Assembly: GCA_037043015.1 (NCBI GenBank)
Contig: CM073321.1
Coordinates: 6,468,001-6,532,000 of the forward strand
Reading direction: 5' to 3'
Length of the DNA stretch: 64,000 bases
Source: Bryum argenteum
Taxonomy: Eukaryota; Streptophyta; Bryopsida; Bryales; Bryaceae
Every line of letters begins with the position of its first letter. The stretch's first letter is position 1. The notes below the pieces were generated by a model. It worked only from the letters and a program-made list of their open reading frames with translations, was not told the origin of the DNA and did not search any database. A program made the translations under genes and the position numbers. Below are positions 2,379-63,514 of this stretch, in pieces.

Positions 2379-2732
2379 CTATTTTGTTGTGATCAAAGTC
2401 TGGGGCAGTTTGGAGGGGAGCAAGACTCCCGAGTTCCCCGAGTTGCTCGATACTTCCTCTCTACCTTGCCGAGCGGATAATACCTCCCCTTTCTTGGTGT
2501 TGTGCCTCCCCAAAGGAAACTTGTTGAGGGCTCTCGGTTCCTTCTTCCAACACCACCATATTCCCGGAGAGGAGGTCCCTTTTTCGAGTTTCCCACACCC
2601 TTTCAATTTGGGGACGTCCACTATCTCCTCTAAGATGATGATGACCCTTGCAAACCACATGTTTGCTTCCGTCATGTTTACCTTGTCTAGGAGTCTTGTT
2701 AGTAACGGATCTGGCTCACCTCTATTCCCTTC
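2379..2732 (-). pseudogene. Open reading frame interrupted by CACTA copy 1 (3' part)
   Basis: On the minus strand an open frame runs from the left end of CACTA copy 1 to a stop near 2379. Removing the 14.6-kb transposon and one copy of its TTC target duplication joins this frame in phase to the open frame at 17303-17434. The joined piece is about 160 codons. It contains a leucine-rich stretch beginning DPLLTRLLDKV and a basic C-terminal part. I do not recognise the family. It could be a host gene exon, part of an older mobile element, or chance. Coding status is inferred only from the frame continuing across the insertion. Confidence 0.35.
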
Positions 2733-3221
2733 CACTAGTACAGAGCAGCGTCAAAAGCGACGCGGTTTAACGCGGTTTTTAACGCGGTTTAACGCAAATT
2801 TTTTGGACACTGAAAAGTCACATATGTGTCACCAAGGCTTTTTGCTTAAACGCGGTTTTTAACGTCTCCGTTATCTAGAAAACACAATACGTTAAACCAT
2901 GTTTATGTACGTTTGAGTTGACACCAAAAAGTTACCTGGGTCAGTAAATGCTTGGAGTTACTTACTTGACACGTTGGCATTTTCTTAAGTTTTTTATTCC
3001 ACGTAGGCGCTGAGGTGGATATTTCACATTCCACGTCAGAAAATACGTGGACAAGGATCCGTCCATGTAATGGATGAAAAATTTGCTTATGTGGCAAGTA
3101 ATTCTGACATGGCATTTTGGTTTTGGATGGTTCAGATGGTGCCACGTGGCATGGTGATTGATTTTGCACTATCGAATGGGACGTTTAAGTAAACATGTAA
3201 CGTTTTCAATGACGGTAGTTT

Positions 3222-3330
3222 GGAAGGTTTATGTTAACGTGTACGAAGGTTTATGTTAACGTGTACGAAGGTTTATGTTAACGTGTACAAACGTTTATGT
3301 TAAACGTGCATAACGTTTCTTTTAACGTAT
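3222..3330. repeat. Subterminal 22-bp tandem repeats, CACTA copy 1
   Basis: About four tandem units of the form aaggtttatgttaacgtgta lie some 500 bp inside the left end. The corresponding part of copy 2 (about 39605-39655) has fewer units. Subterminal repeats of CACTA elements usually bind the TNPA-type protein. That role is inferred here from position and repetition only. Confidence 0.7.
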
Positions 3331-3796
3331 TCTTTATTTCTTATAACGTCTGTGCACATTTTTTGTATCATGTTCGACGTTATATTTAACACATAGGACT
3401 AATATTGTAACGTAGACAACGTTGATTTTAATGCGATGTTTGACGTCTGAATAGATGTTTAGGACGTTTAATGTAACGGTTTTATTGATTTCCCAAGTTT
3501 ACAGAAACGCGAAGTGATGTTAATCGGGACGCAAACGTCATGGCCATAAAAGCGGAAACAAATTGCATGGAACGAGAAGGGTGACGTTTAGTAACCCGAG
3601 AAAACGTCATGCAAAACGTTCAAAAAACGTCAATTAAAACAGAAATATATGCGTTATAACGTCTTCTACCACAAAAAAAAACCTGTTCTAACACACAAGT
3701 AAACGCATCATAAAGTCCTATGCATACGTGCACGTCACGTTCAAAAATGCACTATTTAACATCAAAAAACCATTATGCCGATTCTTGGACTCCAAT

Positions 3797-19289: not shown

Positions 19290-22200
19290 AAATGTTTCAA
19301 ATGCGGCTAAACGACATGGCGGCCTTGCACGATGTCGTTTCGCTCACAATGCAAACTCTGAGTGAGGATAGTGTAGCTCCTCCCACTCAAGATAGCCAAC
19401 AAGCTACGGAGTCTCCAACCTCTCAATCTCCAACCGGGCACGTCCACGAAAAAGCGAGCGGACCCACGAGCGAGGTAGCCCAAGATGTAAGTCGAATTTG
19501 ACGCTCCTATAGAGGATGTCCAAATTCAAACTCCTCCGCCTATTGAGAATGCCAAAGCCGATTTGTCAAAGAAAGTGGGGAGCGTACATGTTGGGGTTGT
19601 CGAAATGCCAACGCATCTTAAGGATATGGATCCCAAGTGGAGTGCAAATGCTATGCGAGTTCTCCACAAGAGCGACTCCAACTCCATGATCAATAGGTTC
19701 TGGGTCAAACCTGTCGAGAAGACAAGGATGCTAATTCCTTTATGCCGCCTGGTTTGTTACCCCAAGGTTCGACCCATCATTAATCGAGATGTCCAAAAAC
19801 TTGAGAATGAGTTCGTAAAGGGATACCGCGAAGGCAATCGGGTTCTCTACGTCTCGCTCTTTGATAACAAGGCTAGAGAGAAATTGGTCTCCTTCGAGGA
19901 TGAGATTTGGTCTAACCCGCTCTGGAAATCTGCCAATGATTGATTTGAAGAGTCATTGCGTGCCGATCCAGACCTTCATCAATTCTGCGATAAATACTTC
20001 TGGGTCTATGAGGATAACCACCGTGTCACTGCTTGGATACGATACATCGAGACGTATCAAAAATCCAATGCCTCTTGGTATATCTCCGTTGATTGCATTG
20101 TCTTTGATGCGCGTGAGGAGAGCAATCTGCTCATAGAGGCGATGAACGGCAATAATTGGTAAGTATCCATGCAGATTCTCAATATATGGTCTTATACAAG
20201 GTAACAAACAAAGTGTATCATTACTCTTGTAATGTCATTTACAGGTCAATGGAGCATGATCATGTTGAAGACAATTTTCCGGCCGAATTGCAACGTATGC
20301 GGAAGTTTGGAAAGTTGAAACTTCCAGACTTTAAAAATCTTATTACCCCAGTGGACTACAAGATTTGCGAGTCCGTCAAATCAAAGCGACCAACTTGGTA
20401 CCCTCTGACTATTGACGTCTTCATCAAATTCCTATAAGCGATAAATTTCTTCTTCAACCATTTTCTTTTTATTTAAATAAGCCGGTTGTAAATATGTTGT
20501 TGTTTGATTTGCAACGTAGATGTGCAAAAGCCTCTGACAAAGCCGAAGCCACTTACAATGACATGACTCCGGAAAATGAACGGACTTGGCTGGAAGTATG
20601 GAGTGCAATGGACAAAGCCATCCAAAGAGAAATCAAGAAAATCTGTGGAAAGAACTTCGACAAAATGCTCGCTGTCGCTAATCCAGAGTTAGGCAAGGCT
20701 TGGGATCGCGAGGTATAAATACATATCAATCTATTTAGCAATGAATTTCAGCTTCCGTACTCCCCAATGATCACCAATCCCTCAAGTCTAAATTCCATGC
20801 GCAGATCAATAACCACTACAGCGCCAATTTTGAACCGGACATGACAATCGAGCGTTTGCACAAGATTGCGACTACAAATGTCCACATCAATTTCAAAGCC
20901 AAATGGCTTCAATGGTGAAACTCATTTCCCACAGGAAAACCCATTGAAAGACAAAGTCCCTGACGTTTGGCTCAGTCCAGCTTTACTATCGGCTCAGGTA
21001 CTTTAATATTTCTTCCTTTCTGTCCTATCAGTATTCTGTCCTTTCTGAACTTTAATATTTCTACTAACGAATTATGTCGTTTTGGATTACAACTGGAGAA
21101 GAGCCTAGAAACAATGTTCGAGAAACTTGTCAAAGATAACAAACTCCACATTGAATGGAGTGACACCATTCTAAAGCCAGCTGATTACATTGAGAAATGG
21201 AGGTTGCTCTTATGGACCAAGGCTTTTGGGTTCTACCTGGACTCTAATGCAAGTCCAATATCCCTCAAATGTTCGGAAATTGAGAAGATCGGCGGCGACA
21301 AGGAAACTACGAAACGACTACTGTTCCGGTAGGTAATTTTATCTAATTTGATCATCTAGCATGTGTATAAGTATTTATTGACTCTAACATTCTATTTGTC
21401 ATTTTGTACTTGAATATACAAAACAAGAGCTCGTAGCCAAGGGTGGGCTCGCTTCCTGGTCCGTTCCAGTATCATATCAAGATGCGACTATAAAAGAATC
21501 GCCTCTCCTATTCTTCTTCTAAATCCAAAAGCAACGATTCACTATGTCCCAATTGTTGATAGGTGGATGGTTCCCTGAGTGTCAAAATAACGACGCTCAC
21601 AAAGAGGAGAAACATCTCTTCCAGATTGTTGGTCCAAGCGCTACTGGTGTTGAGATCATGGACATCGACGATGATGACGAATTCTCCATCTCTCCAGGCG
21701 CACCACCTGCACCCGCTGCACCAATTGCACCCGCTGCGAGACCTAAAGGCAAAGGTAGTAGAAAACGCCGCAACAATGCCCCTCAGCCAGAGCATGAAGA
21801 CGACTCGGAACATGATGCAGAGCCGCAATCTGAAGGTCCATTTCCATTTGAGAATGCAGGTCCAGGCGGACCAATTCTTACACAAACTTCTCATGGAATA
21901 GTCGTCAATGCAGTTCTTGGTGGTGCAGGAATCACTTTGGCTTCGCAAAGGACAACTGCCATTGCAGGGAGACGAACCATGGATTGACTCAATGTTCTAA
22001 AGGCAGGGTATTGACGATGGGCTCACCTCCTTGATCGTTCAACGTAGATCACAACTTTGACCCTTTACCGCATCGTACTAGACAGTCCAAATATGCGAAG
22101 CGCCCTATTTCTATTCTGAAGCATGTCAACAACAGCTCTTCGTCGGCGATTACTGTTACTTTGCCGATGTATCTCGAGAAGGGGAACATGGGGGACTTGG

Positions 22201-23645
22201 ATCATTGCTCCTTACATTCTGGTGCTTGGGAGACCCAAATCCTTGAGGTGGTTGAGTACATAAAGAAGGTACTACACTCCCACATACCTAAACTCATTCG
22301 TTTTTATGATATCTTATACGTGAACGGTACTTATAAAGCCTAATGCATGTTTCCTTCAGATCGGCAAGGACAGGTCGTATCCTTGTACACAGATGGAAAT
22401 GAAACCCAAGCATCCAGGAATCGATTGGATTTTTGCTGATGTTCCTGAGAACTTGCCAGTCATTAGAGTGTCGCCCAAAGAAATTCCTACTTGGAACCAA
22501 CGTGACAAAGACTACTTCGAGCATTTGTTCTGTTTCGCCTCGTACCACTTGACAGACGTCGGGGCGATTCTCCTCATGCACCCCAAGGACCGTCGAATCG
22601 AGCGTAATCTTGACAACCGAGCGGCCGCTTACGGGTTCCGTGTCGTTCGAGATTGGTGGGGTTATAAGCCCCTACCTATGGCTTCTACACTCCCTGACAA
22701 GTCTAAGCAGGTACTCTTTAAACTAAATTTCATACTAGTTACTTATTTACTGGTGTGAATTGTATCTCACCATTGCTTGAAATCTCTTATGGAGACTCAC
22801 GTCTTCAACATCAAGGTTTTTGCTCGAAGGAAGTTCGTGTCTAAGTTCAAATCCCGTCAAGTAGCTCAAGCGTAGGGGGGGGTGAATATAATGCCTGATG
22901 AGGAAGACCTCGTCTCCAATTTTGCTGACACGGAGACCTTGACTTATCGCCCCAACGGTACGCCTTGGCGTGGCTTACGTGAGAAGGATCCATCCTTCAT
23001 CCAGTGCTTCATGGGTTGTCGCACTGACGAGGGTGGTATTGTCTTTGACTGAAGTACTAGTACTGGTAATACTCCTCTCAATTCTACCTATCAATGGAGA
23101 TTAATGAACAATATTATAAACATATGTTTCTTCTTTGTCAGGTGCTTCAGTTATTGTGTGGGCTCGTTCAAACCGCCACCTGATTGTTCTAGAACCCGAC
23201 GATGAAATATTTGACGGTGTTCTATCGACTTTCAAGGATGCACCTCCAATTGAGGAAGAGAGTGGTGAATCCACACCAGGTGGCAACTACGACTCTGATG
23301 TTCCACTTGTCAAGAAGCAGCGAAAGTACATTGGTGCGTAAAATTTTTAACTCATAACATATCTATATTCTACATGTTTGAATATCTTGTACTGACTTTG
23401 TTTGAATATTTAGCTTTGAATATTTAGATTTCAAACGACGATTGAGTCGAACCGCTCTAAGTCCTCCAGCCACTTACGGCCTACCTTCTTACGGGGAACG
23501 CCAAGCTCGTGAGTTTGTTAGAGCTCCATCTCCTATTCTATCAGGCGCAACACGAAAGCGCTTCAACAAAGGCGTACTTAGGTTCATAGACTTTGAGGCT
23601 GATCAATGTGATCAGCATTTTAATGGTGCTTCACCGTCTTCTTAG
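19290..23645 (+). pseudogene. Methyltransferase-like gene of element 1, decayed copy
   Basis: Exons align one-to-one with those at 57946-62512: 19563-20158 (RMLIPLCRLVCYPKVRPI), 20245-20437, 20518-20718, about 20805-20995, 21090-21329, 21440-22269 (GGWFPEC then an acidic/proline-rich linker, then LPMYLEKGNMGDL), 22360-22709 (WIFADVPENLPVI, YHLTDVGAILLMHP), 22800-23064, 23142-23335 (ARSNRHLIVLEPDDEIFDGVL) and 23420-23645 (ends FNGASPSS). The C-terminal half has the motif order of beta-class N6-adenine/N4-cytosine DNA methyltransferases: a DPPY-like position first, the SAM-binding loop later. Stops include TGA near 19941, TGA 20916-20918 and TGA 23050-23052 (both at Trp codons) and TAG near 22873. 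It is not translatable as a whole. Confidence 0.55.
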
Positions 23646-24295
23646 TATGTGTTTTTTCGATATCTTATTCTGGACTAAGTAGTGCCATCTATCTATAGTT
23701 GGCCTTTATTTCTTAATTTTTATGCATCTTATCCTTTATATATGTTTTGAGTCTTTTTATATATGGTCTTTCTATTGCGATTCATCAAAATAATAATCTG
23801 AGTACTTTATAAAAATCATAATCATTTTATTACACAATAGGTGATAGAATTTTGCCAAAGTGGATAGGAGCTCTTGATGACGTCAGCCCTAATTTAATCA
23901 CTATCCTAGTACTCCAAGTGATCGACTTCTAAAAAATTGTAGAAGTAACCGACACATTGTATCAAAATTTGTCTTTATTACACCCTAAAATCAAAATCGA
24001 TCTAACTAAACCAAGTCACAAATGATGATGTCAGCCCTAAATACATAGAAATTGTTATATTCACTTAATAATATTGATTATATTAGAAGTGGTGAACTAA
24101 GACCCTTTTTTAATACACACGGAAGCAGGACCATCTACCACGGATTTGGGGTACTTTATACCCTATAAATAAACATTTGAACATTTTAATAAAACCCATT
24201 CAATGGTAATAGGGTCTTAATCTTTGATAAAAAAATATTTAAATTGTGCCAATAATTCACGCTCACCGCTTTCCGCTCACACCCGTGCATTCCCC
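23646..24295. other. 3' region and right end of element 1
   Basis: This is AT-rich, with no gene. Two copies of TGATGayGTCAGCCCTAA lie at 23875-23893 and 24023-24040. Shared with element 2 are ccacgg-ttt-ggtactttatac, ccattcaatggtaatagggtc and the terminal block gctcaccgctttccgctcacac ending ATTCCCC at about 24295. Confidence 0.65.
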
Positions 24296-49759: not shown

Positions 49760-49769
49760 AGTTGTGTGT
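49760..49769. repeat. Left 10-bp direct repeat flanking element 2
   Basis: AGTTGTGTGT, repeated exactly at 63505-63514 next to the opposite terminus. Interpreted as a target-site duplication. GT-rich sequence lowers the weight of the match somewhat. Confidence 0.65.
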
Positions 49770-49782
49770 GGACGTTGCTACC

Positions 49783-49810
49783 GTGTGAGCGTTGAGCGGT
49801 GAGCGGTAAG
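49783..49810. repeat. Left terminal inverted repeat core of element 2
   Basis: Contains GTGTGAGCG then two GAGCGGT units. The reverse complement recurs at 63444-63492, where the GAGCGGT unit is present about five times. Multiple short units near the end may be binding sites for the protein that moves the element. Confidence 0.75.
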
Positions 49811-49894
49811 ATTTTGAATTTTTAGGACGGAGTTTGAATTTTTAGTAATAAAATTTCTAAAAATATTTTTTTAAAAAAATAGAGAATACTTTTC

Positions 49895-49922
49895 GAATAT
49901 TCTTGGGAATATTCGAATATTC
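49895..49922. promoter_or_regulatory. Heat-shock-element-like array
   Basis: Three copies of GAATATTC lie within 28 bp (49895-49902, 49907-49914, 49915-49922), about 120 bp inside the left end of element 2. GAAnnTTC is the core of the heat-shock factor site. AT-rich surroundings make partial chance matches possible. No gene starts immediately next to it on the plus strand. Confidence 0.4.
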
Positions 49923-50180
49923 TTGACTTATTACCGTGGATTTAGTGACCCAAACCCGTAGAAAGTAAGGCTTAAGTTCCTTGAATTTGGTTAGACTTGA
50001 GCTACAAAACTCGAGAGTACATCACAATTCGTAAATGTAAAGAGTTTTCTAATGTAATATTACTAAATGATTAGTACTCCAAGTTAGACAAATTAGCAAG
50101 GTTTGTTGTACATGTAGGTACTGGTATAATTAATTTTGATAAGTTTTGAAAAAATATCACATACAGTGTGAAGCACACAA

Positions 50181-50580
50181 TCATAGGAATAACATATAGC
50201 GTATGTAGATGAGGAGATATAAGATATAATTTTTCCTCAAACGGGCAATGTGCCACAGCCTCTCGTCCACTTTAGTCTCCTGAACAGCGGTCACACGTTC
50301 AATACTAGGTCGAGCAAAAGTGGGTGGTATTGTCGGTGGCTCCTCAACTTCATCCTCTTCATGGATAGTACTCAGATTTTCAGCACAAGCTCGGGTAACC
50401 CTTCTCCCCATTTGGGGACGTGAGTAGCTCACGGTGTCTGGTCTGTGTGTTTCATCATCAGCTTTAATTGGAACATTAGCCTTACGTTTCTTAGATCCGA
50501 ACACCTCAGCCCCCTCAAGGTGATTCGGTCCAAAACCAGCTTGGTATGAATTGTAGTGTCCCCAACATCGAAAATATATT
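50181..50580 (-). CDS. Unrecognised basic protein exon in element 2
   Basis: The minus-strand frame is open from about 50580 (GPNHLEGAEVFGSKKRKANV) through a Ser/Arg and Glu/Pro-rich stretch (STIHEEDEVEEPPTIPPTF) to ERLWHIARL, after which it becomes hydrophobic and probably leaves the exon. KKRK could be a nuclear localisation signal. No ATG lies at the start of the frame, so it is probably an internal exon. Family unknown. Confidence 0.4.
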
Positions 50581-50789
50581 CTTAGCTGGAAGGAATTGAT
50601 ATGAACCTGCTGCTATGGTATCACTTTTCTCTCTCACAGGCCACTTTTTTTTTCACTGTTATGTCAATGATGAGCTTTCAAGGTGGATGTCCTTACTCTG
50701 AATGCAAACTTCGGAACCAAGATTACCTCTTCTGAAATACTCCGCTTTTATCCCTTCTCTGGTCTTTTCCAACTATTACCTTGCATTTC

Positions 50790-50976
50790 TTATTGAGATT
50801 TTCTGGCACATCTCGCGGAAAAGGAGTTGGACGGGGTCGTGGTCGTGGTCGTGGTCGAGGAGCAGCAACAGCATAGAATGGTCACCTTGACGATTCACCT
50901 TCAGCAAAGAAAGGCCGTCGAGGTCGAGCCGCGGCAGCAAAAGAAGCCGCAGCAGCTCTGGCTGGGATGACATTCT
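50790..50976 (+). pseudogene. RG-repeat ORF fragment in element 2
   Basis: The plus-strand frame reads SGTSRGKGVGRGRGRGRGRG, AATA, a TAG stop, then NGHLDDSPSAKKGRRGRAAA, an alanine-rich stretch and GMTF before TAA at about 50976. RG repeats bind nucleic acid in many proteins. There is no start codon and one in-frame stop, so this is either a decayed exon or a coincidence of a GTCGTG simple repeat. Confidence 0.35.
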
Positions 50977-51155
50977 AACATGAAAGGACTTCAGAGCACT
51001 TCACTTGAACTTCAGAGCATGGAGTCAAGCAGTCAAACACGGTCCTCGGCAATGCCGAAGTCTGTAATTTGTATTAAAAAATTTCATCACATTCAATGCC
51101 AACTCTCATTTCAAATGTGAGTCGTGGCCATACAACTTCTATAACTATCCATCAG

Positions 51156-51593
51156 CTAGTCATAGTTGGAGTCAGTCTCTGTATCACTGCTGCTGCGATC
51201 ACCAGCGTTTGAAGTGAATTCTAAAACATCCTCCCAAATCGTCTGTAGTGGCAGTATTTTATACGCATTGCAGCTGAAGCACCCCCATGTCTTGCCCGTC
51301 AGGTCCTTCAGGTAGTCGTCTCCCTTGTTCCGTGCTATACACGCTGAACACCACGCCTTATGACAATAATCACAGGGGATCACAAACTCAACTCCTCCAC
51401 ACCAATTGCATTGCTCATCATCATACTGGGCGTTCTTCGTAAATACAACGTCGTCCAACAAAAGTTTGCACAAAACGCAAATTCCAGCACCAAGACGAGG
51501 ATGCTCCATCAAACGAGCACGGATTTTTCTCTCTCCACATGCAGTGCAGGAATACAAATACAAAGGATCGAAATCGGCTGCATGCCATGCCAT
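51156..51593 (-). CDS. ADD-type zinc-finger protein (ATRX/DNMT3-like ADD domain)
   Basis: This is an intact 145-codon frame on the minus strand. Twelve cysteines follow the ADD plan: a GATA-like finger with C16, C19, C39 and C42, then a PHD-type finger with C62, C65, C74, C77, C82, C85, C105 and C108. Hallmark text includes CTACGE, HPRLGAGIC, DDEQCNWCGG and CDYCHKAWCSACIARN, which is closest in feel to ATRX ADD. ADD domains read the histone H3 tail (unmodified K4, methylated K9) in ATRX and DNMT3. Residues 128-145 are Ser/Asp/Glu-rich. There is no catalytic domain. The frame extends upstream without a stop for a few codons to a possible splice acceptor (gtttgttag), so a short upstream exon may exist. 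It is the best-preserved coding region in element 2. Confidence 0.75.
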   Translation of the reverse strand: MAWHAADFDPLYLYSCTACGERKIRARLMEHPRLGAGICVLCKLLLDDVVFTKNAQYDDEQCNWCGGVEFVIPCDYCHKAWCSACIARNKGDDYLKDLTGKTWGCFSCNAYKILPLQTIWEDVLEFTSNAGDRSSSDTETDSNYD

Positions 51594-52236
51594 TTGATCG
51601 ACTTCAACAGTGCAAGACTAACAAACTTCGAATGAGAGATGGCCCAAAAGTCCGAGCTTTGAGATGCTCGCTATCCTCCCAAACCGTTCTTGTATAAAAC
51701 GACAGCAAACCGGATTGCCTTGATTTTACCTTGAAGTCCCATCCCTCCGCACCAATCCATCGACCTATCAACGGCACCGCCGACAGCACCGGCAGCTTTT
51801 TTGCAGGACTGTAAGGCACCGACATTTCTACAAATTAGGAACCGACACTTCGGCACCGGCACGAATTCTCATGACAATCGACCTGATTTTTCTTACATTT
51901 TCACAAGAAATCAAATCACTTGAGCATCCTTTCCTCCCATCTGTACCAGCACATCACAATGAGCTCCAACATGGCACAGCTACATGGGACGTTAAAACCG
52001 ACACTCCGACACTCTTTATGACACAACCCATCCGCTCTCATGCATGGCCATGTTAGAATAGAACATGAGCACCGACATCTTGTACCGAGACCATGCTGTT
52101 TACTTCACTAACGTCACGGTCCCATGACATGTTCGGCCGGATTGGTTGGCGATATCGATTTTTTTAAAATGATGATGCTGGGACTGGCCTCCATACGGAA
52201 AATAAGAAATTTGTTTCAGCTCAAGGACCCTCCAAT

Positions 52237-52617
52237 TCAGCATTTTTGAGATGGTAGAAGAACTATGATGGTGGAGGCGTTCATGACGGACTCTTTGAAG
52301 CCATACAGCTGATACTGTCCAAGCCGTAGCTTATACATTTTACAATTACTCTCTAGGTCAACGAGGTCGACAAGGACGGAGTCCTGAACAAGATTAGAGT
52401 TTGGATCCAAGACATGTTTCTCTAACCACAGAGAGGACTCATCAAACCCGAAACAAATTGCTACCCACGACGGAGTGACTTTTGCCACTCCATCCACCCT
52501 CGGAGGAATGCAGATGGGAGGACTTAAGTCTTCTGACCTAATGGCAATGACGTCTGCAGCGGGAGGTAAGGGAGTGGAGGATGCCATGATAGACGTCGGC
52601 GAAGAGGACAACATCAA
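52237..52617 (-). CDS. Unrecognised ORF in element 2
   Basis: A 126-codon minus-strand frame from MMLSSSPTSIM to LLPSQKC. It has a Pro/Ser-rich start, then WVAICFGFDESSLWLEKHVL, then SVLVDLVDLESNCKMYKLRL. Balanced composition and the absence of repeats favour real coding sequence. No family recognised. Divergent to the gene at 53100. Confidence 0.4.
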   Translation of the reverse strand: MMLSSSPTSIMASSTPLPPAADVIAIRSEDLSPPICIPPRVDGVAKVTPSWVAICFGFDESSLWLEKHVLDPNSNLVQDSVLVDLVDLESNCKMYKLRLGQYQLYGFKESVMNASTIIVLLPSQKC

Positions 52618-53031
52618 AAAGTGCGCGGAGAAAGAGAGTCTCGGGTGTGTTTCCAGTGTTCAAATATGTGACATTGGTGTACGATGTTTGCATACGTATT
52701 GAATATATATTAGACGTAATTTTTTATAATGACCCGTACAGAAACCCAATACTCTGAATCGTGAATATGATGATTTGAAATCACATTACCTAGAATACTT
52801 AAATTATCTGAACTGGCAATATTGCATTATGTACTGACGATTAAAAATATTAGATTCGTCGATAAATTAAGTAGGTGTAGAAGGTAAATTGACGGCCGCA
52901 GTCATTGTCAGAGATTTAGTTGGATAATAGATGCGTTCAGAAGTTAGCTTATTAGGGATTGTCAGACACCGTGATAGCGGGATGTTAGGGAATACGCGTT
53001 GGCTGATTAGGGCTTAACCGCATAGAGAAAC

Positions 53032-53040
53032 TTATATAAT
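53032..53040 (+). promoter_or_regulatory. Putative TATA box for the gene at 53100
   Basis: ttatataat lies 60-68 bp before the ATG at 53100, a reasonable distance for a plant promoter with a short leader. Confidence 0.4.
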
Positions 53041-53099
53041 GGAGTTCAAACTCATAGATCGACCCCTTCATTTGCAGCGAGAAAGCTTGGACTCGTTAA

Positions 53100-53768
53100 G
53101 TGGAACGTGACAAAAGTTATTTCATTGCAAGCAGCATGGACGAGACCGCTAGCGGTACTGAGAGAGGAAAGGAAATGGGTCAGAGGAAGAAGAAGCGGAG
53201 GGGTGGTACAAAGTTCACTAATTCTAAAGCACAGAGGCGTAGTGCTTTGCGGAAGCGCGACGGGATAAGCTCAAGCGGCGAATATCGAGAGCCAGACGGG
53301 TACGATCTCTTGATCGACGATGATGTGCTACCGCCGTTTAGGCGGACTATTAAGATGCGATCGCTGAACCTCGACACTGTCCAAGAGAGTGTCGCGACGG
53401 ACGAAGCCGAAGAAGAGGAGGATGAAGGGCAGATCAGAACAGCTAGCGAGATTGTTTGCGTGGATGGGGATGACGATGGAGGTGTAGACTCTACATAGGA
53501 GGTAATTAAGTTTTGTATGTTATGAACCCGTGGATATTTCTAAAGGTTAAACTATTACTGAATATGTATATGGATTAATATAAACATGTTATGTCTCCAG
53601 GGCCGCCAAGGATCGGAAGAGGAAGACAATCGATCAGGAGATGAATCAACAATGTTTGAGGAGAAAAGAGTCACTGATACGGGCGAGAAAGGAGAAGCCT
53701 CTTTTCATCAGAAAACACATGATGATACGACGGATGGATTTGAGACAAGTGCTGAGGAATTAGAGGAG
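53100..53768 (+). CDS. Acidic/basic two-exon gene in element 2
   Basis: Exon 1 starts at the ATG at 53100 (also Met13 at 53136). It is basic first (GQRKKKRRGG, KAQRRSALRKRDG), then YDLLIDDDVLPPFRRTIKMR, then acidic (DEAEEEEDEG). An in-frame TAG at 53496-53498 lies one codon before a GTAATT donor. Exon 2 is about 53599-53768 (GSEEEDNRSGDES ... TSAEELEE), ending at a GTACAT donor. The protein may end at the TAG or the stop may be a late lesion. The pattern resembles a nuclear linker protein. Family unknown. Further exons may lie at 55112 and beyond. Confidence 0.45.
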
Positions 53769-53809
53769 GTACATGAGAAACCCTACTTCCTGGTTTACTA
53801 GGAGGACCT

Positions 53810-54165
53810 AGGGTTGGTTAAATATACAGTCAACGAGAGTTCATTCTTCAATATAAGTAGTTCTGAGGTTTGACGTGATATAATTTCATGATATGAATGG
53901 ACCCGAGATTGAAAAATATATTTTATATTCATTTTATAGTGCAAATATTGTTTTGATAGTGGTATAAATTGTATTCATATGGATTGCACTGAGTGAGTGC
54001 GGTGATCATAAATACAATATGTAGTATTGGTGAAATCATCGCGGAGAAAACAAAAAAATAGTCCATGACAAAGAAGGTCTAGTGAAGTAGCCGGGTAGGT
54101 ACGGGCATGGTATGGAGAAATGTGTAGGTAAATAATTCGGCCGAAGTAGGGATGAGGTAGGTAAT
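53810..54165. other. Non-coding spacer
   Basis: AT-rich. No gene seen. Confidence 0.4.
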
Positions 54166-54169
54166 TAAA

Positions 54170-54540
54170 TTGGGCCGGGAACGGGGTACATAATTCGGCC
54201 CGGGTACGGGGCGAGCCGGGTAGGATCAAGGTACAGGACGAGCAGGGTAGGGGCGGGGCCAGGCGAGTAGGGGTGGGAATAGCCGGGTAGGTTGAAAATC
54301 GGGCTGGGGTAGGGTTTAGGCGGGTAGGGTCCTGGGCGTGTAGGGTTTAGGCGGGTAGGAACCTGGGCGGGGTAGGGACCAGGGCCGGGTAGAAACCTGG
54401 GCCGAAGTAGGGACCTAGGCCGGGTAGGGACCTGGGCGAGGTAGGGACCATGGCCGGATAGGGACCTGGGCAGAAGTAGGGACTTGGTCCGGATAGGGAC
54501 CTGGGCAGAAGTAGGGACCTGGGCCGGGTAGGGACCATCG
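54170..54540. repeat. G-rich minisatellite
   Basis: About 18 degenerate units of gggtagggacctgggc run on the plus strand. Runs of three or four G at short spacing could form G-quadruplexes. The proline-rich reading on the minus strand is a by-product of the repeat, not a gene. Confidence 0.85.
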
Positions 54541-55111
54541 ACGTCGTCCCTCCATCTGCTATAGCGGCGAGCCAGTAAGGAGCACGGCGAGCCGGCGGAG
54601 CCACCCCTGATGGCAGCCAGCGGAGCCACCCCCGATGGCAGCCTTCCTCACCAGCCATGAACGCCGTGATTGCTGTCAGCTCGTGCACGAAGTTTGTGCT
54701 GGCATGACAGCGCTCCGTTCCGGGTCGATTTGAGCTTGTCCTTTCCGGAGCCTCAGGAGGCGTTACTTTAGTTCCTCTTTCCCGCAGGAGAGGGTCGACC
54801 AACGCAAGTGGTTGGCGATGGTGCCTGTGGCAGAGGATAAGACAATGGAGATTAATTGAACCCTAATTAGGGATTCCTCTACGCCGCCTTGGTGATTAGT
54901 GCCAAATTTATGGCGTACTATTTTTAGAAGAACAGAGGGATCTGCTCTGACAACAGCAGGTTTGAGATGGCTGACACTGTTGAATATGGATTGCAGACCT
55001 AGTTTGAGACGTTGATGAAAATTATCAGATAGTTGTGTTTAGCATCGTGGTTGGATTCCTTGTGCATATTGTGAATCGAAGGTAAGAAGTGCTGAATTCG
55101 GAGAAGGAGAA
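54541..55111. other. Non-coding region before the small gene
   Basis: Contains a short direct repeat (ggagccacccc-gatggcagcc, two copies at about 54598-54640) and a GTAAGA donor-like site near 55081 that could end a 5' untranslated exon. Confidence 0.4.
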
Positions 55112-57813
55112 ATGGCAGACAAAGTGTACAAACAGATGACACTGCTGGGAGGAATGGAGGAAGAGGTGCTGCGAGGAGAGGAGGAAGAAGTGCGGCGAGG
55201 AGAGGAGGAAGTCGAGATGAGAGGAGAGCAGCTAGTCGTCAAGGATCTAGAAAATGTGAGTTCTCAATCATCAGAGACGAGTATCTTCTCTTGGATTTAT
55301 AGGACTCAGCCAAATTGGGGCCAAGCGATGAAGACTCGACTCGTGTTGGAAAACGTCCACGCCAGGAACTTTAAGGTATGGATTCCAAGTAGTTTTTTCA
55401 AACTTCATCTTGTCTGCCTAGCTCGTGTCAATGCTGGCTGCTCATTGTGTCGATGATGAGCATCATTGTGGATTTTGTGGATTCCTGACAAGCTGCCGAA
55501 TCCCGAGCTCGCTTTTCAATTCCCAACGAGGTGCCGATTCTCGAGCTCGCTTTTCGATTCCTGACAAGCTGCCGATTTTTTATTTCAATTTTGGTTGGTT
55601 GATTAGTGAGCTCTGTTGAGGCTTCAATTGGAAATGCTCGTAAGTCCTTCATAGCGCCGTGATGGTCTGTGAAAAGTGAGAGCTCGGAAGGTCCGGCATG
55701 CACCCTGTCTGGAAGATTTTATTTTTCATTTCAATTTTTGGTGCTTGATTCATTAGCTGTGTGCAAGCTGGGATCGAGGAGGCTGTTGACTCCTTCGTAG
55801 CGCCCGTGATGGTCTGTGCAAAGAGTGAGCTGGGTGGTCCGGCATGCAGCAAGTCTGGTTGTGTCAACGCTGAGCTCGTGATGGGCAGGGCACGCAACCT
55901 TTCTTGCTCAGGGCCTCCTTTGCCCTCGTGGGTTTTGCAACGGGCAATGAAGCACAATGCTGAGCTTGGATACGAGTCTGCTCAATGTAGCTAAAACCGC
56001 AAACTTTCTTCTTGATGGCTGAGGCTTAAATTTTGTTTGCGGAAGTGTAATTTGGTTGGACCAGTGCCAGACTTGCGTCGACGCAAGTCTGACACTTGTC
56101 CGACAAGATTTGATTTTTTATTTCATTTTTGGTTGTCTGATTGATGAGCTTTCTTAAAGCTTGGATCGGTTATGCTGGTGACTCCTTCATAGCGCCGAGA
56201 TGGTCTGAAAGTGAGGGCTGGGAGGTCCGCCCTGCAACATGTCTCCCAATGTTGGGCTCGGCATGCAGCCTCTCCTGCACAGGGCCTCCTTCGCCCTTGT
56301 GGATTTTGCAACGGGCAATGAAGCTCCTTGCTAAGCCCGGTAACAATCCTGCTCAGCTGAGAATTGTCCACGAACCTTCATCTTCATGGCTGATGCTCAA
56401 ATGTTGTTTGCGGAAGTGTGATTTGGTCGGACAAGTTTCAGACTTGCGTCGACGCAAGTCTGGCACTTGTCCGACAATCTGCCGATTTTTTTTTTTCAAT
56501 TTTGGTTGCCTGATTGATGAGCTCTCTTGAAGCTGGGATCGAGGAGGCTGTTGACTCCTTTGTTGCGCCGTGATGGTCTGTGCAAAGTGGGAGCTGGGGA
56601 GGTCCGGCATGCACGTGCATGCTTGTGTCATCGCTGAGCCCGTACCGTGATTCGGTATGCTGACCGTTTGCTTGTGTCAACGCGCGGCTCTTGATGGGTC
56701 GGGCATGCGGACTCTCTTGCACAGGGCCTATTGGGAGGCTTTTGACTCCTTCGTAGCGCCCGTGATGGTCTGTGCAAACTGTGAGCTGCGAGGTCCGGCA
56801 TGCAGCAAGTCTGCTTGTCTCAACGCTGAGCTCGAATTGGTCCGACAAGTGCCAGACTTGCGTCGACGCAAGTCTAACACTTGTCCGTCTGAATTTGCAT
56901 TTTCTTTTTAATTCTCATTTCTTCTTCTTTGCTTGTGTCAACGCTGAGCTCGTGGGCTCCTAGGGAGGTCGGGCATCCAGGCTCTGATTTCATCGAGGAG
57001 AGGTCGGGCATCCAGCTGGAGCCTGCCGATTTTCTATTTCAATTTTTGGTGCTTGATTGATGACCTCTGTGCAAGCTGGGATCGGGGATGCTGGCGACTC
57101 CTTCGTAGCGCCGTGATGGTCTTTGCAAAGTGTGAGCTGGGGAGGTCCGGCATGCATCGTCTGTGCTTCTGTCAACGCTGGCCCCTTGGGGAGGTCCTGC
57201 ATGCAGTCTGTCTTATTGTGTCAACGCTGAGCCCGTGATGGGTCGGGCAGGCAGCCTCTCATGCACGGGACCTCGATGGTCCTCGTGGGTTTGTCAACGG
57301 GTGATGACGCTCCTCGCCAAGCCCGCAAACCAGCCTGCTCGATTGAGATTTTTCCACAAACTTCCTTCTTGATGGCTAAAACTCAAATGTTGGATGGGCC
57401 GTGATATATGAAGCTGGATTGATTAAATTGAGTTTTTCTGAAATTTGAATTTTGTGGTTTGGTATTTAAATATTGGATTCTTGGTGTTTTTGCAGGAACC
57501 TTTAAAGCGAGTTGCAGTTCATTCAGAAGAGGAATCTAATGCAAATAGTGACCTCTCTTTTTTAAGAGACGAAGTGTTAGCTTATGTGGAGTCCCGTCGA
57601 TTAGTTATAGCTTTGTCTTTGGTCCCGGAAACTCCACCTCTTGCCTCACCTGTCCGTCACACATCACGTGTTCACGTTGATCGGATTGCACGAGCAGTTA
57701 ACATGCGAATTAAAAGGAATGAGGCCAACGCTCGTCGTAACCAGGCGAAGGAATTTGCTAGACTTGCACCTAGACGTTCTCCGCGACTTGCTGCAAAGAT
57801 GCACCAGCCTTAG
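55112..57813 (+). CDS. Small two-exon nuclear-type protein of element 2
   Basis: Exon 1 is 55112-55375 (88 codons: a glutamate/arginine-rich stretch, then SIFSWIYRTQPNWGQAMK), ending AAG before GTATGG. Exon 2 is 57496-57813 (105 codons) after a tttttgcag acceptor. The phases match, giving a protein of about 193 residues with no internal stop. The C-terminus has VDRIARAVNMRIKRNEANAR and ends APRRSPRLAAK..., a basic motif like DNA minor-groove binders. The C-terminal part is conserved in element 1 (18829-19149). The 2.1-kb intron is filled by tandem repeats and palindromes. Linkage of the two exons is my inference from phase and position. Confidence 0.55.
55600..57330. repeat. Intronic tandem repeat array of element 2
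   Basis: Recurrent modules: gattgatgagctctctt-aagctgggatcg, gactccttcgtagcgcc, gtgatggtctgtgcaaag, gaggtccggcatgca, tgtcaacgctgagc and cctcgtgggttttgcaacgg. They occur in about six irregular copies near 55620, 55750, 56130, 56520, 56730 and 57050. The array is interspersed with a GC-rich palindrome. It is unrelated in sequence to the array at 17620-18765 in the sister element. Confidence 0.8.
56057..56886. repeat. Three copies of a long GC-rich palindrome
   Basis: Each copy has a perfect core ACTTGCGTCGACGCAAGT centred at 56079/56080, 56450/56451 and 56864/56865. Imperfect arms extend to about 24 bp per side (ggacaagtgcc-ag...ct-ggcacttgtcc). Each could form a hairpin or cruciform. Confidence 0.85.
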
Positions 57814-57945
57814 TTTTATCGGAACATTAAATAATATGTTTATCATATTCTAATTTACAAGAAGATTATGTATTCCTTTTAATAAATTATTGATCATTTC
57901 ACACTATCTTATGCTTATTGTGGTGTGTTGTATTTGATTTTCTAG

Positions 57946-60900
57946 ATTGCCAGATGAACATAGCTCAGGTTCATCTCATTCAAGATGAAGAAGCCAACCC
58001 GCTTCATCATAATCCTCCACAACCTGTATCTTCCAACGGAGATGAACTCATACTTGATAGTGTGAGAGATGTTGATGACTTGAGAAGTGGAGATCCACAA
58101 GACAGTCCTTTGGAAACTGCTCGCCAACATGTGGTAGGCGAATGCAATGCAGTGTCAAGTGACAATCCTCTCGAAGCTGCAGATATTCATCTACCAACTC
58201 AAGACAATGATGGACACCAATCCCTCTCAGATGATGAAGAATCTACATTGCCTGAAGGTGTCAACGTTGGACTCATTCACATGCCCGCACATCTTGAAAA
58301 CAAAGACCCCGACTGGAGTGCTAACGAGATGCGAATTCTCCACAACAGTGATTCGATTGCAATCATCAACAGGTTACGCTACAAACCTGTTAAGAAGTCT
58401 CGTATGCTAATTCCACTTTGTCGCCTCGTTTGTTATCCGAAGGTTCGCCCGATCTCAGAACAAGACGTCAGAAAGCTCGAGAATGAGTTCAACAAGGGAT
58501 ACCGCAAAGGCGATCGAGTAATGTACGTGTCTCCCTTCGACAAGAAAGGCCGAGAGAAAATTGTTGACACTCAAGATGAACTTTGGAAGAACCCGCTTTG
58601 GACAGCCGCGAATGAAGAGTTCGAGAGTACGCTGCGGGCTGATCCAGATCTTCTTAACCTTTGTGACAAATATTTCTGACCACCGTGTTACAGCGTGGAT
58701 GCGCCATATCGAGAGGTACCACAAGAATGATCCCTCGTGGTTCATTTCGGTTGATTGCATCGTACTCGATGCCCGTGGAGAGAGCAATCTCCTCCTCGAT
58801 GCTATGAACGACATTAACTGGTAAGTGAATGTCGCATTTTGTAAAATTTGTTTCCTTTATAAATTGTCATATGCAATTTTTATCATCTTTCATTCTATGT
58901 TGTAGGCCCACTGAACATGATCACGTCGAAGACAGTTTGTGTGCGAAACTCCAACGCATGAGGAAGTTTGGTAAGTTGAAACTCAAAGATTTCAAGGACC
59001 TCATTTCTCCAGAAGATTACAGAATCTGTAAGAACGCCAAAGCAAAAAAGGAGACGTGGTATCCTTTCACAATAGACGACTTTGTAAAATTTCTATACAC
59101 GGTACGTTCACTACATATGTGCTCGACTACTTTTCTTTAAATTTATCTAAAACAACTTCTCATTTGTGTTCTGGTTGTTATATAGAGGAGGTTAGCGAAA
59201 AAATCCGACGATGCTGAAGCTACGTACTACGCCACGGTTCCAAAAGATAAACAAACTGGACCGGGAGTATGGAGTGCCGTGGATAACGCAATCAAGACTG
59301 AAATCAAATTAATACGTGGCAAGAATTTCGACAAGATGGTCGCCGTGGCCAATATCAAACTCGAGAAAGTATTTGCGAAAGAGGTATTGCTAGCTGGGTT
59401 CTTTGATTACTGACACTGTAACTGTCTCTACGTTCTACTACTCTAATCGAAACTGTGATTCTAATGTGCAGATTAATTCTCATTACAGCCAGAAGCTGAA
59501 ACCCGATATGACAATCGATCGCTTACAAATGGTGGCCACTTCCAATGTTCACTTCGATTACAAGGGAAAGTGGCTCCAATGGTGGAACTCATCAGACGAA
59601 GTTCGACGATCAGTTCGCTTCCCTGAGGATCGCCCTATGAAAGATAAAGCTTTCGTTTCATTTTTACATCGTGCTTCTCTTTGGGCACAGGTAACTCGCA
59701 TTTTTGTTCTCTGATTACAAAATTTGAGTTTATATGTTACTTTAAATACTAACATGTTTCCTGTATTCTCAGCTTGAGCAATCACTTGAAAGTGAATTGC
59801 ATAATCTAGTAGATAACGAGAACCTCAAAATTGAGTGGTCTACTGTTGTCCTAAAGCCATCCGCGTATATATCGAGAAGTGGAGGTTGCTCTTATAGGAG
59901 AAGGCATTCGGAAACTATCTTGCTCCAACTGCAAGTCCGAAGTTCATTAAAGGCTCGGATCTTTGTAAGATTACTAGAGGCAAAACCACAATTAAGCGAC
60001 TTTTATTCCGGTATGTATTCCTTTTCCTATAAAGTATTATTGAAATTGGTTCAACGTATGCAATTTTCCCAATCTAATTTGTTTACTTTTTTGTAGGTAC
60101 TTAAAACAAGAGCTCGTTGCCAAGGCAGCATTACCTTCGTTCTCCATTCCCATGGAGCTCGAGGACGTTGCGGTGACAAATGATACCCGCAACTTTTTCT
60201 CCTCAGCTCAACAAGAGCGGTTTACTAACTCCCAATTGACGATCGGTGGATGGTTCCTTGAGTGCGACGACAACTACGTGCACAAGGAGGAGAAGCATCT
60301 TCTTCGAAACCTGGCTTCAAACCCAGCTGACTCTGCACCGATGGAGATTGACAACGATGACGATGACGACCTATCCATTTTACCAGTCGCTGCTGATCCA
60401 ATCGCTTCTCCTTCTTCACTAGTTGCAGTGCCGAAGTCTCGTGCAAACAGGAAGCAACGCAATGCTGTTGCAGAACCTGTTGTAGATCTTGAACAATACT
60501 CCGAAGACACTGCTCCTCTACCACAAGACATTGCAGGGCCAGAAGATGCTGATCTGACTCAGGCTTCAGAGGGAGCGACAAACAATGCAAATCGACGCAG
60601 TCCAAGAGTGACTCAACTTTCTTCAGGTGGTCTTACGAATGTTGGGTCCCCTCCTCAATCATTCACCGTTGACCACAACTCTCCGCAGTCTCCTCGCCGT
60701 CTCAGTCAGCCAAAATTTGCTAAGCGCCCTCTTCCGAAACCCAATCACATTGGTAGCAGCTCGTCGTCAAAAAATTCAGTCACTCTGCCAATGTATCTCG
60801 AAAAGGGGAACATTGGAGATTTGGTTCATCACTCGGCGAAGACTGCAAAATGGGGGTAAGCGTTCGTAGCAGCTACCAAGGAGGATGGAGGAGGGGTAAT

Positions 60901-62512
60901 GAGCCCCCTAATGTTTTTATGTTTAGACATTAAATGCCAAGGAGTAGGCTTCCAAGGGTAACTTGGGGTCGTAGACCTCAAATTTGAATTCAAAATTATC
61001 AAAAACGGCCCTGGGAGGTACCCACGGATTCTAGGGTGCCTCCTTGGTAGCTGCCACGAACCATTGCCCGCAAAATGGGATTCGCAAATCCTCGATATCG
61101 TTGAGCACATCAAGAAGGTACTACTTTGTTCATTTGTCATTTATAATCTTTGTACTTACATTTTGTGCTTATAAATCTATTAGCCACTTTCTAATCTTTG
61201 ACTTGTATCTCAGATTGGAAAAGACCAAAAGTACCCGTGTTCGGCGATAGAATATGATCCAAAGCATCCATGGATTGATCTTATTTTTGCAGTCGCTCCC
61301 GAGAACTTACCTGTACTGGGTGTGTCTCCAACAGAAATTCCATCTTGGAACCGGCGTGACAAAACCTACTTTGAGAGCCTCTTCGTGTTTGCCGCGTATC
61401 ATTTGACAGACGTTGGAGCCATTCTTCTGATGCATCCCAAATGTCGTAGAATTGAGCGTACTCTCGATTCCAAGTCGCATACATATAGTTATCGTCTTGT
61501 TCGAGACAGGTGAGGATATAATCCCCTCCCTATGGCCTCTACCGTGCCTAAACCGAAAGAGGTAAGGACCAGATTCTACTTTCCAATTTCACAATTTGTG
61601 ATTATTGCCTTCTATGCTTGTATGTTAACGTATGTATACTTGTGTTTTGCAGACTCATTGCTTCCATATCAAAGTGTATGTTCGTAAAGAGTATGTTCCG
61701 AAGTTCGAAACTCGACAAGTGTCACACGCATACGCGGGCGTGGCAATCATACCTGATGAGGAAGACCACCTCTGTAACTTTGCAGAGAAAGAAACCTTGC
61801 GTTATCGTCCGGACGGTACGCCGCGCGGCGAGGCTCACGAGAGAAGGACCCCTCCTTCATTCAATGTTTCGTGGATTGTCTCACGGACGAGGGGGTATAG
61901 TCTTCGACTGGAGCGCAAGTACAGGTATCGTTTCCGTAAACACTACATTAGAATTCGTTTCTACATTTTGCATTTCTAACGTTTTCTTCTGATTTTTTAG
62001 GTGCATCTGTGATTGCTTGCGCGCGCTCCAACCGACACCTCATCGCCATGGAACCTGACGAAGAAATCTTTGATGGTGTACTAGCGGAATACAAGAATGG
62101 TCCTCCCGGTGATGAGGAAAGTGGAGAATCGGCCCCTCCCGCGGATTATGACTCTCACGAACCGGTCGTGAAGAAGCCACGAAAGTTCATTGGTGTGTAA
62201 TACCATCTTCTTTTCTCTTTCTCGATTTCAAATTACTCACTTACAAATCAATAGTATTGACTTTCCTTGTACTTTTAGGATCGCAGGTCTGAAAGAGCGA
62301 TTGACTCGCAACGCTCATCTCTACAAGAGCCCTCCATCAAAATTCACCCTACCATCATCGCTAAGTGTCTTGCTCAAGAGTTTGTTCAAGCTCCATCTCC
62401 CATTTTGTCTGACACTCCACGTGGACGTTATAGCAATAGTATGCTTGAGTTTATAGACTTTGAGGCTTATCAATGTGATCAGCACTTTAATGGTACTACA
62501 CCGTCAGCCTAG
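57946..62512 (+). pseudogene. Methyltransferase-like gene of element 2 (ten exons)
   Basis: Exons by splice sites and homology: 57946-58820 (ATG 57954), 58906-59101, 59188-59383, 59472-59690, 59773-60010, 60097-61117, 61214-61561, 61653-61924, 62001-62192 and 62279-62512, about 1,190 codons. The N-terminal half (RMLIPLCRLVCYPKVRPI; DDFVKFLYT) is conserved with element 1 but unrecognised. The C-terminal third resembles beta-class N6A/N4C DNA methyltransferases: WIDLIFAVAPENLP at the DPPY position, YHLTDVGAILLMHP, then VVFDWSASTG at the SAM-loop position and NRHLIAMEPDEEIFDGVL. Canonical DPPY and FxGxG are not preserved. Lesions: a 14-bp loss near 58678, a 2-bp AT gain near 59869, TAG 59895-59897 and TGA 61512-61514 (both Trp codons), frameshifts at 61830-61910, and a MITE in exon 6. 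It is probably inactive as read. Confidence 0.6.
60855..61071. mobile_element. 217-bp MITE in exon 6 of the methyltransferase-like gene
   Basis: Terminal inverted repeats share GTTCGTrGCAGCTACCAAGG. An exact 8-bp direct repeat AAAATGGG flanks the insert (60847-60854 and 61072-61079). Removing the insert and one repeat restores the reading AKWDSQILDIVEHIKK, matching element 1 (AWETQILEVVEYIKK). An 8-bp duplication points to a hAT-type element. Confidence 0.9.
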
Positions 62513-63504
62513 TTTGTGATTTGTTTTCTAATAGGTAGTGGACATGGTAGCGCCATACATTTGTAGTTTACCATGATCTATTACTTATATACTATCTATA
62601 TGTGTTTTTCAATATATATGGTTTGATATTTTCATTTATTGTTATTATCGTTTATAGCTTAAGCTCCACTAAGTGTTTCAAGTATTACTCTAAGTATCTC
62701 AATACACTGTAATCTAAGCCATGCATGCCTTTAACGGTGATGTCAGCCCTAATTTTGATGTAACTTCTTCAACTCCAATCTAAATGTTTAAGTTTTAAAC
62801 TCAATGCAGCCTAAAAGTTTCAGAAGGTTTTTTTATTTTCCATTGGAGTGATTGAATCTTGTCAATGTTGGTAGGGGCTATAGTCCAGTATTTGTATAGT
62901 TCAGGATAGCAGCCTTAAGACGCAGTGCAACGCTCAAACGAGGCCGAGGAAAATCAAACCACTACAATGCCACGTAAATGTCTTTCTGTACACCTTACAA
63001 GGAGACACGGGAAGACGACCTGTAGTTATAAATTTCAGATTATATAAACCGAAGCATTTACATATAATTCTGACAAGTGTAATAGGAAATTGATGACATC
63101 AGCCCTAATTAGACTCCTAATATTAAAATCGATAAAATAAACTTATTGATTACCTAAAGGGCCATCCAAAAGTCGTCGTTTAGATTTTGTTATATGATTT
63201 GAATTGTATTGGTTACACATGATGATGCCAGCCTATAATTTAATTAACGTTTATTCAAACTTGCAAATGTGGATTATTTATGAAATATTGTATGACCTCA
63301 ATACTATGAAAATGGATGGATAAATGACCTATGTCCACGGTTTTGGGTACTTTTATGCCTAAAAATAACCATTTCAAAATTTCAGAACCACACATTCCAT
63401 GGTAATAGGGCCATTAACTTTTACATTTTTTTCTTCTCACCGCTCAAACTTTACCGCTCACCGCTCACCGCTTACCGCTCAACCCTCACACCGGTGGTTT
63501 CCCC
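62513..63504. other. 3' region and right end of element 2
   Basis: No gene. Three TGATG...TCAGCCcTAAT motifs lie at 62738-62753, 63091-63109 and 63220-63240. Blocks shared with element 1 are ccacggttttgggtacttttatgcc and ccatggtaatagggcc. GAGCGGT units in reverse complement fill 63440-63492, and the element ends TTTCCCC at 63504. Confidence 0.65.
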
Positions 63505-63514
63505 AGTTGTGTGT
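63505..63514. repeat. Right 10-bp direct repeat flanking element 2
   Basis: AGTTGTGTGT, identical to 49760-49769. Confidence 0.65.

Follow-up and report, generated by a model that had tools for sequence, protein, structure and literature searches.

A stretch of 64,000 nucleotides from the moss Bryum argenteum (assembly GCA_037043015.1, contig CM073321.1, positions 6,468,001 to 6,532,000; hereafter the window) carries at positions 49770-63504 a transposon copy of 13,735 bp with imperfect inverted ends and a 10-bp target-site duplication. Direct reading places its boundaries at GGACGTTGCTACCGTGTGAGCGTTGAGCGGTGAGCGGT on the left and GGGGAAACCACCGGTGTGAGGGTTGAGCGGTAAGCGGT (reverse-complemented) on the right, the outermost bases being GGACGTTGCTACCGTGTGAGCGTTGAGCGG... 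and, in reverse complement, GGGGAAACCACCGGTGTGAGGGTTGAGCGG..., and AGTTGTGTGT stands immediately outside both ends (49760-49769 and 63505-63514) as an exact repeat. The terminal arms are 87-89% complementary across 25-30 bases (87% for arms of 30 nt); the two ends of one copy are related, not identical. Inverted ends with GAGCGGT units and an exact 10-bp flanking repeat had been described in an original prediction made from the letters of the window, and both are there to be read. Between the ends lie remnants of a transposase gene, an open gene for an ADD zinc-finger protein and, on the opposite strand, a broken gene of ParB-like and methyltransferase-like character. The principal features are as follows, copy D being another member of the same family.

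49760..49769, no strand: left copy of the 10-bp target-site duplication AGTTGTGTGT, from the sequence
49770..49814, plus strand: left terminal inverted repeat with GAGCGGT units, from the sequence and from outer bases kept in 8 of 8 left-end loci
50181..50612, minus strand: C-terminal remnant of the transposase gene, from alignment of 50228-50522 with copy D 1285-1579 at 91.5%
50523..52247, minus strand: ADD-bearing segment in place of the transposase core (copy D 1580-3910), from alignment with copy D
51156..51617, minus strand: open ADD zinc-finger gene, 153 codons between stops, earliest Met at residue 9
52237..52659, minus strand: remnant, N-terminal part of the transposase gene, from alignment with copy D
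57954..62512, plus strand: ParB-like / N6A-N4C methyltransferase-like gene, broken, from spliced alignment to the gene at locus L042 and profile matches of relatives
61274..61303, plus strand: motif IV region, AVAPE in the window, AD[V/A/I]PE at all 18 further places that were read
61890..62080, plus strand: motif I region IVFDWSASTGASVIACARSNRHLIAMEPDEEIF, interrupted by an intron and immediately preceded by a frameshift
63446..63504, minus strand: right terminal inverted repeat, from the sequence and right-end loci
63505..63514, no strand: right copy of the 10-bp target-site duplication AGTTGTGTGT, from the sequence

The genome searched was that of the window itself (258.8 Mb, 25 contigs; the window is C1:6468001-6532000), and all genome-wide match counts are lower bounds. 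A left-end query of 80 bases, started 17 bases inside the element, gave at least 40 matches (292 candidates), and a right-end query of 100 bases, which took in the terminus itself, likewise gave at least 40 (384 candidates), each at 91-100% identity and with the window included. All 8 loci fetched for the left end agree, fully or almost fully, in the outer 17 bases beyond the query, and at the right end the flanks diverge directly past the terminus, itself part of the query, in all 30 loci fetched. Left and right ends are paired in the correct orientation, 12-19 kb apart, at no fewer than 8 places among the matches listed, the window being one. Because the ends recur genome-wide in this way, a chance origin of the inverted ends is ruled out. 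Both flanks were read for six insertions, five of them independent and all five with exact 10-bp duplications; besides the window copy these are the following.

C1:26212303-26227275, copy D: exact 10-bp duplication CGTCAGACGA
C1:19210321-19222089: exact 10-bp duplication AGTGACATGG
C5:16163258-16174729: exact 10-bp duplication CTTGTTCGCC
C1:5579105-5594563: exact 10-bp duplication GTATAGAAAT

The sixth, C1:5268722-5280467, has a duplication matching at 9 of 10 bases and, because it shares its flanks with the copy at C1:19210321-19222089, is taken as a segmental duplicate and not as an independent event. Further copies with the same ends and duplications of 9-11 bp, for which the original prediction had proposed a search, are found in this way; the two outcomes it had named as speaking against a transposon, namely a lack of other genomic copies with these termini and 10-bp repeats belonging to a longer host repeat, are borne out neither by the matches to each end nor by the flanks of the other insertions. 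The element is a member of a large, high-copy DNA transposon family in moss. A duplicated cluster of host genes, with no transposon involved, would find some comfort in the segmental duplication just mentioned, but five different 10-bp duplications directly at conserved termini contradict it, as do family matches on C1 to C11 (end, ADD and methyltransferase-like searches combined), and we give it practically no credence. A virus-derived element was also considered and set aside; two pattern scans of viral_contigs, each with only two short patterns, confirmed 0 relatives, which is a weak test.

The original prediction saw no transposase and left the mode of movement open, and on this point it is superseded. 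Copy D encodes a transposase with an open core reading frame (core at D 1580-3910), of which the window copy retains outer pieces only, the ADD gene sitting between them. The predicted transposase fold is probably nearest to ISCth4, a Mutator-type transposase (Mutator/IS256-like DDE fold). With Mutator-like elements (MULEs) the family shares inverted ends, recognized both in the arms of the window copy and in the ends conserved among fetched loci, and a target-site duplication that, at exactly 10 bp in all five independent insertions, lies within the 8-11 bp of MULEs; the account of MULEs in PMC6446971 further gives them a DDE transposase, often with a zinc finger, and extra open reading frames. 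It differs in that the transposase is without a Pfam MULE match: among 30 homologs none matched PF10551 at E up to 1, and there was one match to Transposase_mut at 0.18. The window copy is a decayed, non-autonomous member of the family.

The methyltransferase-like (METHYLTRANSFERASE-like) gene had been predicted as a ten-exon gene with the motif order of beta-class enzymes. That order is found in 57954-62512(+), whereas the gene as such is a pseudogene in the window copy, with 2 in-frame stops and 6 frameshifts. It is broken also in copy D (3 stops, 4 frameshifts) and at L064, L066, L067 and L069, and L068 has one frameshift; unbroken are L042 (10 exons, 1164 aa), L065 (query residues 15-1163) and the aligned part of L063 (16-1087). 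Eight of nine introns are common to L042 and L063 in order and phase, even with tblastn pieces that are only 39-53% identical, and three further gaps in L063 all fall in a low-complexity linker. L063, L065 and L067 make up a distinct subfamily of the gene, L065 showing the same range of tblastn identity to L042 as L063. A diverged second copy in the window, 25 kb from the first in the original prediction, is indeed present.

19578..24295, plus strand: second, diverged methyltransferase-like gene copy with 7 stops, its right end at 24295 being degenerate, from blastn and spliced alignment

Its main blastn pieces (~19.6-24.3 kb) are 67% identical to the first copy, and no left end was found for it with up to 5 mismatches. 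A Transposase_21 match (tnp2, CACTA/EnSpm-type; E 1.7e-36) lies at 11560-12780 (+), ~7 kb before this copy.

The C-terminal part of the protein matches DNA methyltransferases of PHROGs (best E 2.5e-5 for a relative from the moss Ceratodon purpureus, 1.4e-5 and 4.3e-5 for two overlapping pieces of L063) and, below the cut-off, Pfam N6_N4_Mtase (0.0024 and 0.011), the stretch at 0.011 being a single span from residue 875 to 1046. Profile comparison with four phage methyltransferases (hhalign) returned the motif X/I block at 94% (E 1.3e-7), whereas motif IV appeared just in a second alignment that is weak (1.3%); these four were picked from the best phage tblastn matches of the same region, so that the comparison is not blind, and the E-value is that for a library of one. 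Taken with the Pfam stretch, motif IV then precedes motifs X/I as is the order in the beta class. Among the best 20 of 162 phage records in tblastn, 17 are named methylase or methyltransferase (E 0.008-0.8), many of them from near-identical phages. The N-terminal part resembles the ParB-like phage family phrog_1033 (E 0.0081 for L042, 0.02 for L063) around the YEGNHRVTAWMR / GNHRVTA stretch and had no match in Pfam, NCBIfam or phage tblastn. The protein appears to join a start that is tentatively ParB-like to a beta-order N6A/N4C methyltransferase-like end. Profile searches of the PDB with alignments A1 and A2 gave no match. The Ceratodon relative, a hypothetical protein with 49% identity over 68% of the query, was the single one among 5.8 billion proteins, a rarity that may be overstated because the search requires shared 5-residue words and similar length; its AlphaFold model (P0001) was left out of fold searches because of a pLDDT of 43.

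Across the methyltransferase-like region, the pairwise ratio of nonsynonymous to synonymous substitution rates (dN/dS) has a median of 0.086, based on simple Nei-Gojobori estimates for 117 usable of 171 pairs from 19 places, the other 54 pairs being saturated. The loci L049-L060 were best matches to the intact query and for that reason skew to intact copies; L049, which is the L042 place, was left out, and L080 is the window. As judged from these ratios, the protein is maintained by strong purifying selection in its methyltransferase-like region. The catalytic [D/N/S]PP[Y/F/W] of beta-class methyltransferases is replaced by D[V/A/I]PE in 18 of 19 places, by AVAPE in the broken window copy and by DAPE in Ceratodon, the four phage proteins having DPPY, and motif I in unbroken copies reads DWSPSTG, DWSASTG or DFSASTG, barring isolated substitutions (STC in L059, for example). 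A functional N6A or N4C DNA methyltransferase marking element DNA, with the ParB-like part choosing the sequence, would accord with the beta-class order and the matched motif I region, with the motif IV Asp kept in those 18 places and in Ceratodon, and with the strong purifying selection; a similar role for a similar protein is proposed by the Ectocarpus authors in the pertinent part of PMC12477816. Such an enzyme is difficult to reconcile, however, with a Glu at the aromatic position of DPPY in all 19 places and in Ceratodon, and with a glycine-rich motif I turned into SASTG or SPSTG in nearly all copies read whole. We consider active modification of this kind rather unlikely. Ordinary N6-methyladenine or N4-methylcytosine (6mA/4mC) methylation by the protein appears doubtful from its motifs, and DNA binding or a changed reaction is favoured because of the altered catalytic motif. 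Of the predicted methyltransferase-like character, ancestry is what stands, given a gene that is dead in the window copy and a conserved catalytic motif that is non-canonical; "methyltransferase" is used here in that sense and not for a demonstrated activity.

The ADD zinc finger had been predicted to be intact, and this is sustained by an open frame at 51156-51617(-) that matches ATRX ADD structures with E 9.6e-16 over residues 21-133; Pfam gave ADD_DNMT3 at 0.021 and ADD_ATRX at 0.12, both below the cut-off. The protein has the Cys pattern of the ADD domain besides the sequence similarity to it and, like the ADD domains of ATRX and DNMT3, combines a GATA-like with a PHD-type finger. In the printed alignment DEQC is kept and LLL replaces the YYM of ATRX, residues of interest for the binding of H3K4me0 / K9me3; a further difference is that here the domain forms a stand-alone small protein within a transposon. 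The own-genome search found at least 150 ADD matches (150 of 283 candidates scored), and the 89 strongest (at least 181 bits) were used to establish layouts relative to 155 methyltransferase-like matches. Forty of the 89 lie beside a methyltransferase-like gene in one of two fixed layouts, that of the window (5-20 kb apart on opposite strands, 22 matches) and a convergent one (within 1.3-1.7 kb, 18 matches), with another 2 in other arrangements and 47 having no methyltransferase-like match within 20 kb. Five of the 155 were added as known pairs, and the count without them is 35/89. When placement was randomized, 500 trials averaged 0.95 pairs and never exceeded 4, the lengths of C4 and C10 being rough guesses in this control. 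The proposal that one element holds both an ADD protein and a methyltransferase-like gene is borne out by this genome-wide recurrence of the two together.

Three settings of the ADD gene can be distinguished. In the window type (a) it follows closely on the left end, at the place taken by the transposase in copy D, and a left-end piece is joined directly to the ADD segment in 4 of 5 further ADD loci (L044 and its duplicate L045, L046, L048); at the fifth, L047, no left end was seen. Setting (b) is a second, related transposon family (L061, L062), which has its own transposase frames, GAGCGGT-like repeats and the same ADD gene. In setting (c), seen at L082, the methyltransferase-like gene has the ADD gene joined straight to its 3' end. 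None of 75 candidates proved to be a homolog when an ADD protein of the second family served as query. L061 holds a second ADD-like protein at 3998-4396 (-), with an ATRX E-value of 4.2e-4 and ~1.5-2 kb from the ADD gene, and such a pair could be regular, to judge by weak matches that lie ~2 kb away from several ADD copies. The dN/dS of ADD is 0.15-0.22 between window type and second family (12 pairs), 0.08 within the second family (1 pair) and 0.34-1.47 among window-type copies, where 10 of 15 pairs fall between 0.79 and 1. Because of the low values between and within the families and those near 1 among window-type copies, our reading is that ADD would have been under selection in the second family and before the amplification of the window type, and would have drifted nearly neutrally since.

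These data bear directly on the view that the ADD and methyltransferase-like genes are passengers, acquired by chance as in Pack-MULEs and useless to the element. The window copy lacks the transposase core as a Pack-MULE would, its methyltransferase-like gene is dead, the window-type ADD copies show the near-neutral ratios just given, and no fewer than three different layouts are seen for the joining of ADD segments, as with swapped cargo. Yet one other ADD setting is a second transposon family, and the ratios of ADD between and within the two families are low. The median dN/dS of 0.086 in the methyltransferase-like region also speaks against useless cargo, with the proviso that the loci used favour intact copies, as do the intron order and phase retained by L042 and L063 at their low identity and the existence of a relative in Ceratodon. 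Passenger cargo is considered unlikely.

Based on the collective evidence, we understand the interval as a non-autonomous copy of a cut-and-paste family, Mutator/IS256-like by predicted fold, with ParB/methyltransferase-like and ADD accessory proteins whose use is likely anti-silencing, a reading to which we assign a probability of roughly 0.7. Copies such as D would supply the transposase, for which the Mutator/IS256-like DDE fold is predicted, and the family inserts as a unit with 10-bp target-site duplications, as seen at the five independent insertions; the window copy, having lost the core, would have been moved in trans. The accessory set consists of the ParB-like/methyltransferase-like protein in the family and of ADD proteins in part of the copies, and in the related second family ADD proteins are carried alongside that family's own transposase. 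The ParB/methyltransferase-like protein may bind element DNA and the ADD protein may bind histone H3 tails, and both could jointly shield or mark the chromatin of the element against host silencing, as VANC does for VANDAL; their joint use could serve anti-silencing or targeting. VANC proteins of the Arabidopsis VANDAL elements are a precedent for transposon-borne anti-silencing (as presented in the relevant parts of PMC10398659, PMC5735166 and PMC13317346), and VANDAL/Hiun elements with VANC are MULEs that have anti-silencing proteins (PMC10398659, PMC5735166, in the sections on these elements). VANDAL differs in having a non-TIR MULE structure, where the present element has terminal inverted repeats. 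A more elaborate proposal, tentative at best, is that of a land-plant Mutator-type family with a self-directed epigenetic kit, in which a ParB-guided, methyltransferase-derived binder of element DNA and an ATRX-like ADD reader of unmodified H3 would be exchanged as cassettes between related transposons and would help to evade silencing or to steer insertion, the GAGCGGT arrays at the element ends being a possible target of the binder.

One of the closest known parallels, likened by description and not by sequence, is Sola1-1_Ec32 of Ectocarpus, for which the corresponding passages of PMC12477816 describe a transposon-borne protein of ~1100 aa with a ParB-like and an N4mC/N6mA-type methyltransferase domain, encoded within a giant DNA transposon on the strand opposite the transposase. 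Copy D shows the same placement in a DNA transposon, with the transposase on minus, the methyltransferase-like gene on plus and the 10-bp duplication outside. Sola1-1_Ec32 differs in belonging to the Sola superfamily and in its host, which is no land plant, and those passages mention no ADD. The same source, in the part concerned, reports ParB-methyltransferase transposon proteins in brown algae, cites green and red algal cases, and mentions giant EnSpm elements in red algae. A predicted ParB-like N-terminus on a Wolbachia prophage methyltransferase is described in the section of PMC3089641 on that protein. Selfish elements that carry DNA methyltransferases under purifying selection are known also from dinoflagellate LINE and DIRS elements and from charophyte retrotransposons, with cytosine methyltransferases in retrotransposons and Dam-like enzymes cited for DIRS elements; unlike the present family these are retrotransposons, with enzymes of C5 or Dam type and no ParB fusions in the account that the relevant part of PMC5890265 gives.

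No land-plant transposon with an ADD or ParB-methyltransferase protein was found in the literature, in a search mostly without subscription journals and with hits viewed in part; "methyltransferase" is absent from the main text of the MULE paper PMC6446971, and PMC12695648, which deals with eukaryotic 6mA, nowhere mentions "land plants" or "moss" in its main text. The original claim that no plant family like this has been described is uncontradicted by the search, but algal ParB-methyltransferase transposon proteins have been published (PMC12477816, in the part cited above). Accessory genes of this kind have precedents, but the literature searched offered none for a Mutator-type vehicle, for this host group, for an altered catalytic motif or for a pairing with ADD. 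Our study has importance in extending ParB-methyltransferase accessory genes, known from algae, to moss and to a Mutator-type element. Transposons are usually viewed as targets of chromatin marks, and the family makes testable whether land-plant elements carry chromatin tools of their own, in the form of a selected methyltransferase-derived protein and shuttled ADD genes resembling histone readers. The results suggest that the element may interfere with host DNA marking, and the catalytic motif, conserved in a non-canonical form, raises the question of whether the protein is a writer, a changed enzyme or a pure binder.

Two further features lie within the element.

53137..57813, plus strand: gene or genes without assigned function, with frames at ~53137-53498, 53603-53769, 55108-55380 and 57497-57813, placed by eye
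60854..61069, no strand: small inverted-repeat insert in the methyltransferase-like gene, between copies of a duplication of 9 or 10 bp, GCAAAATGG(G)

Three pieces of the first region tried against Pfam gave no match. The 0.2-kb insert at 60854-61069 resembles a small non-autonomous element. A tandem array of 17-18-base GGGTAGGGACC-like units occupies 54300-54540, and near-identical palindromes around GACTTGCGTCGACGCAAGTC recur at 56049-56110, 56421-56475 and 56840-56895, in a region of diverged direct repeats at 55570-57390.

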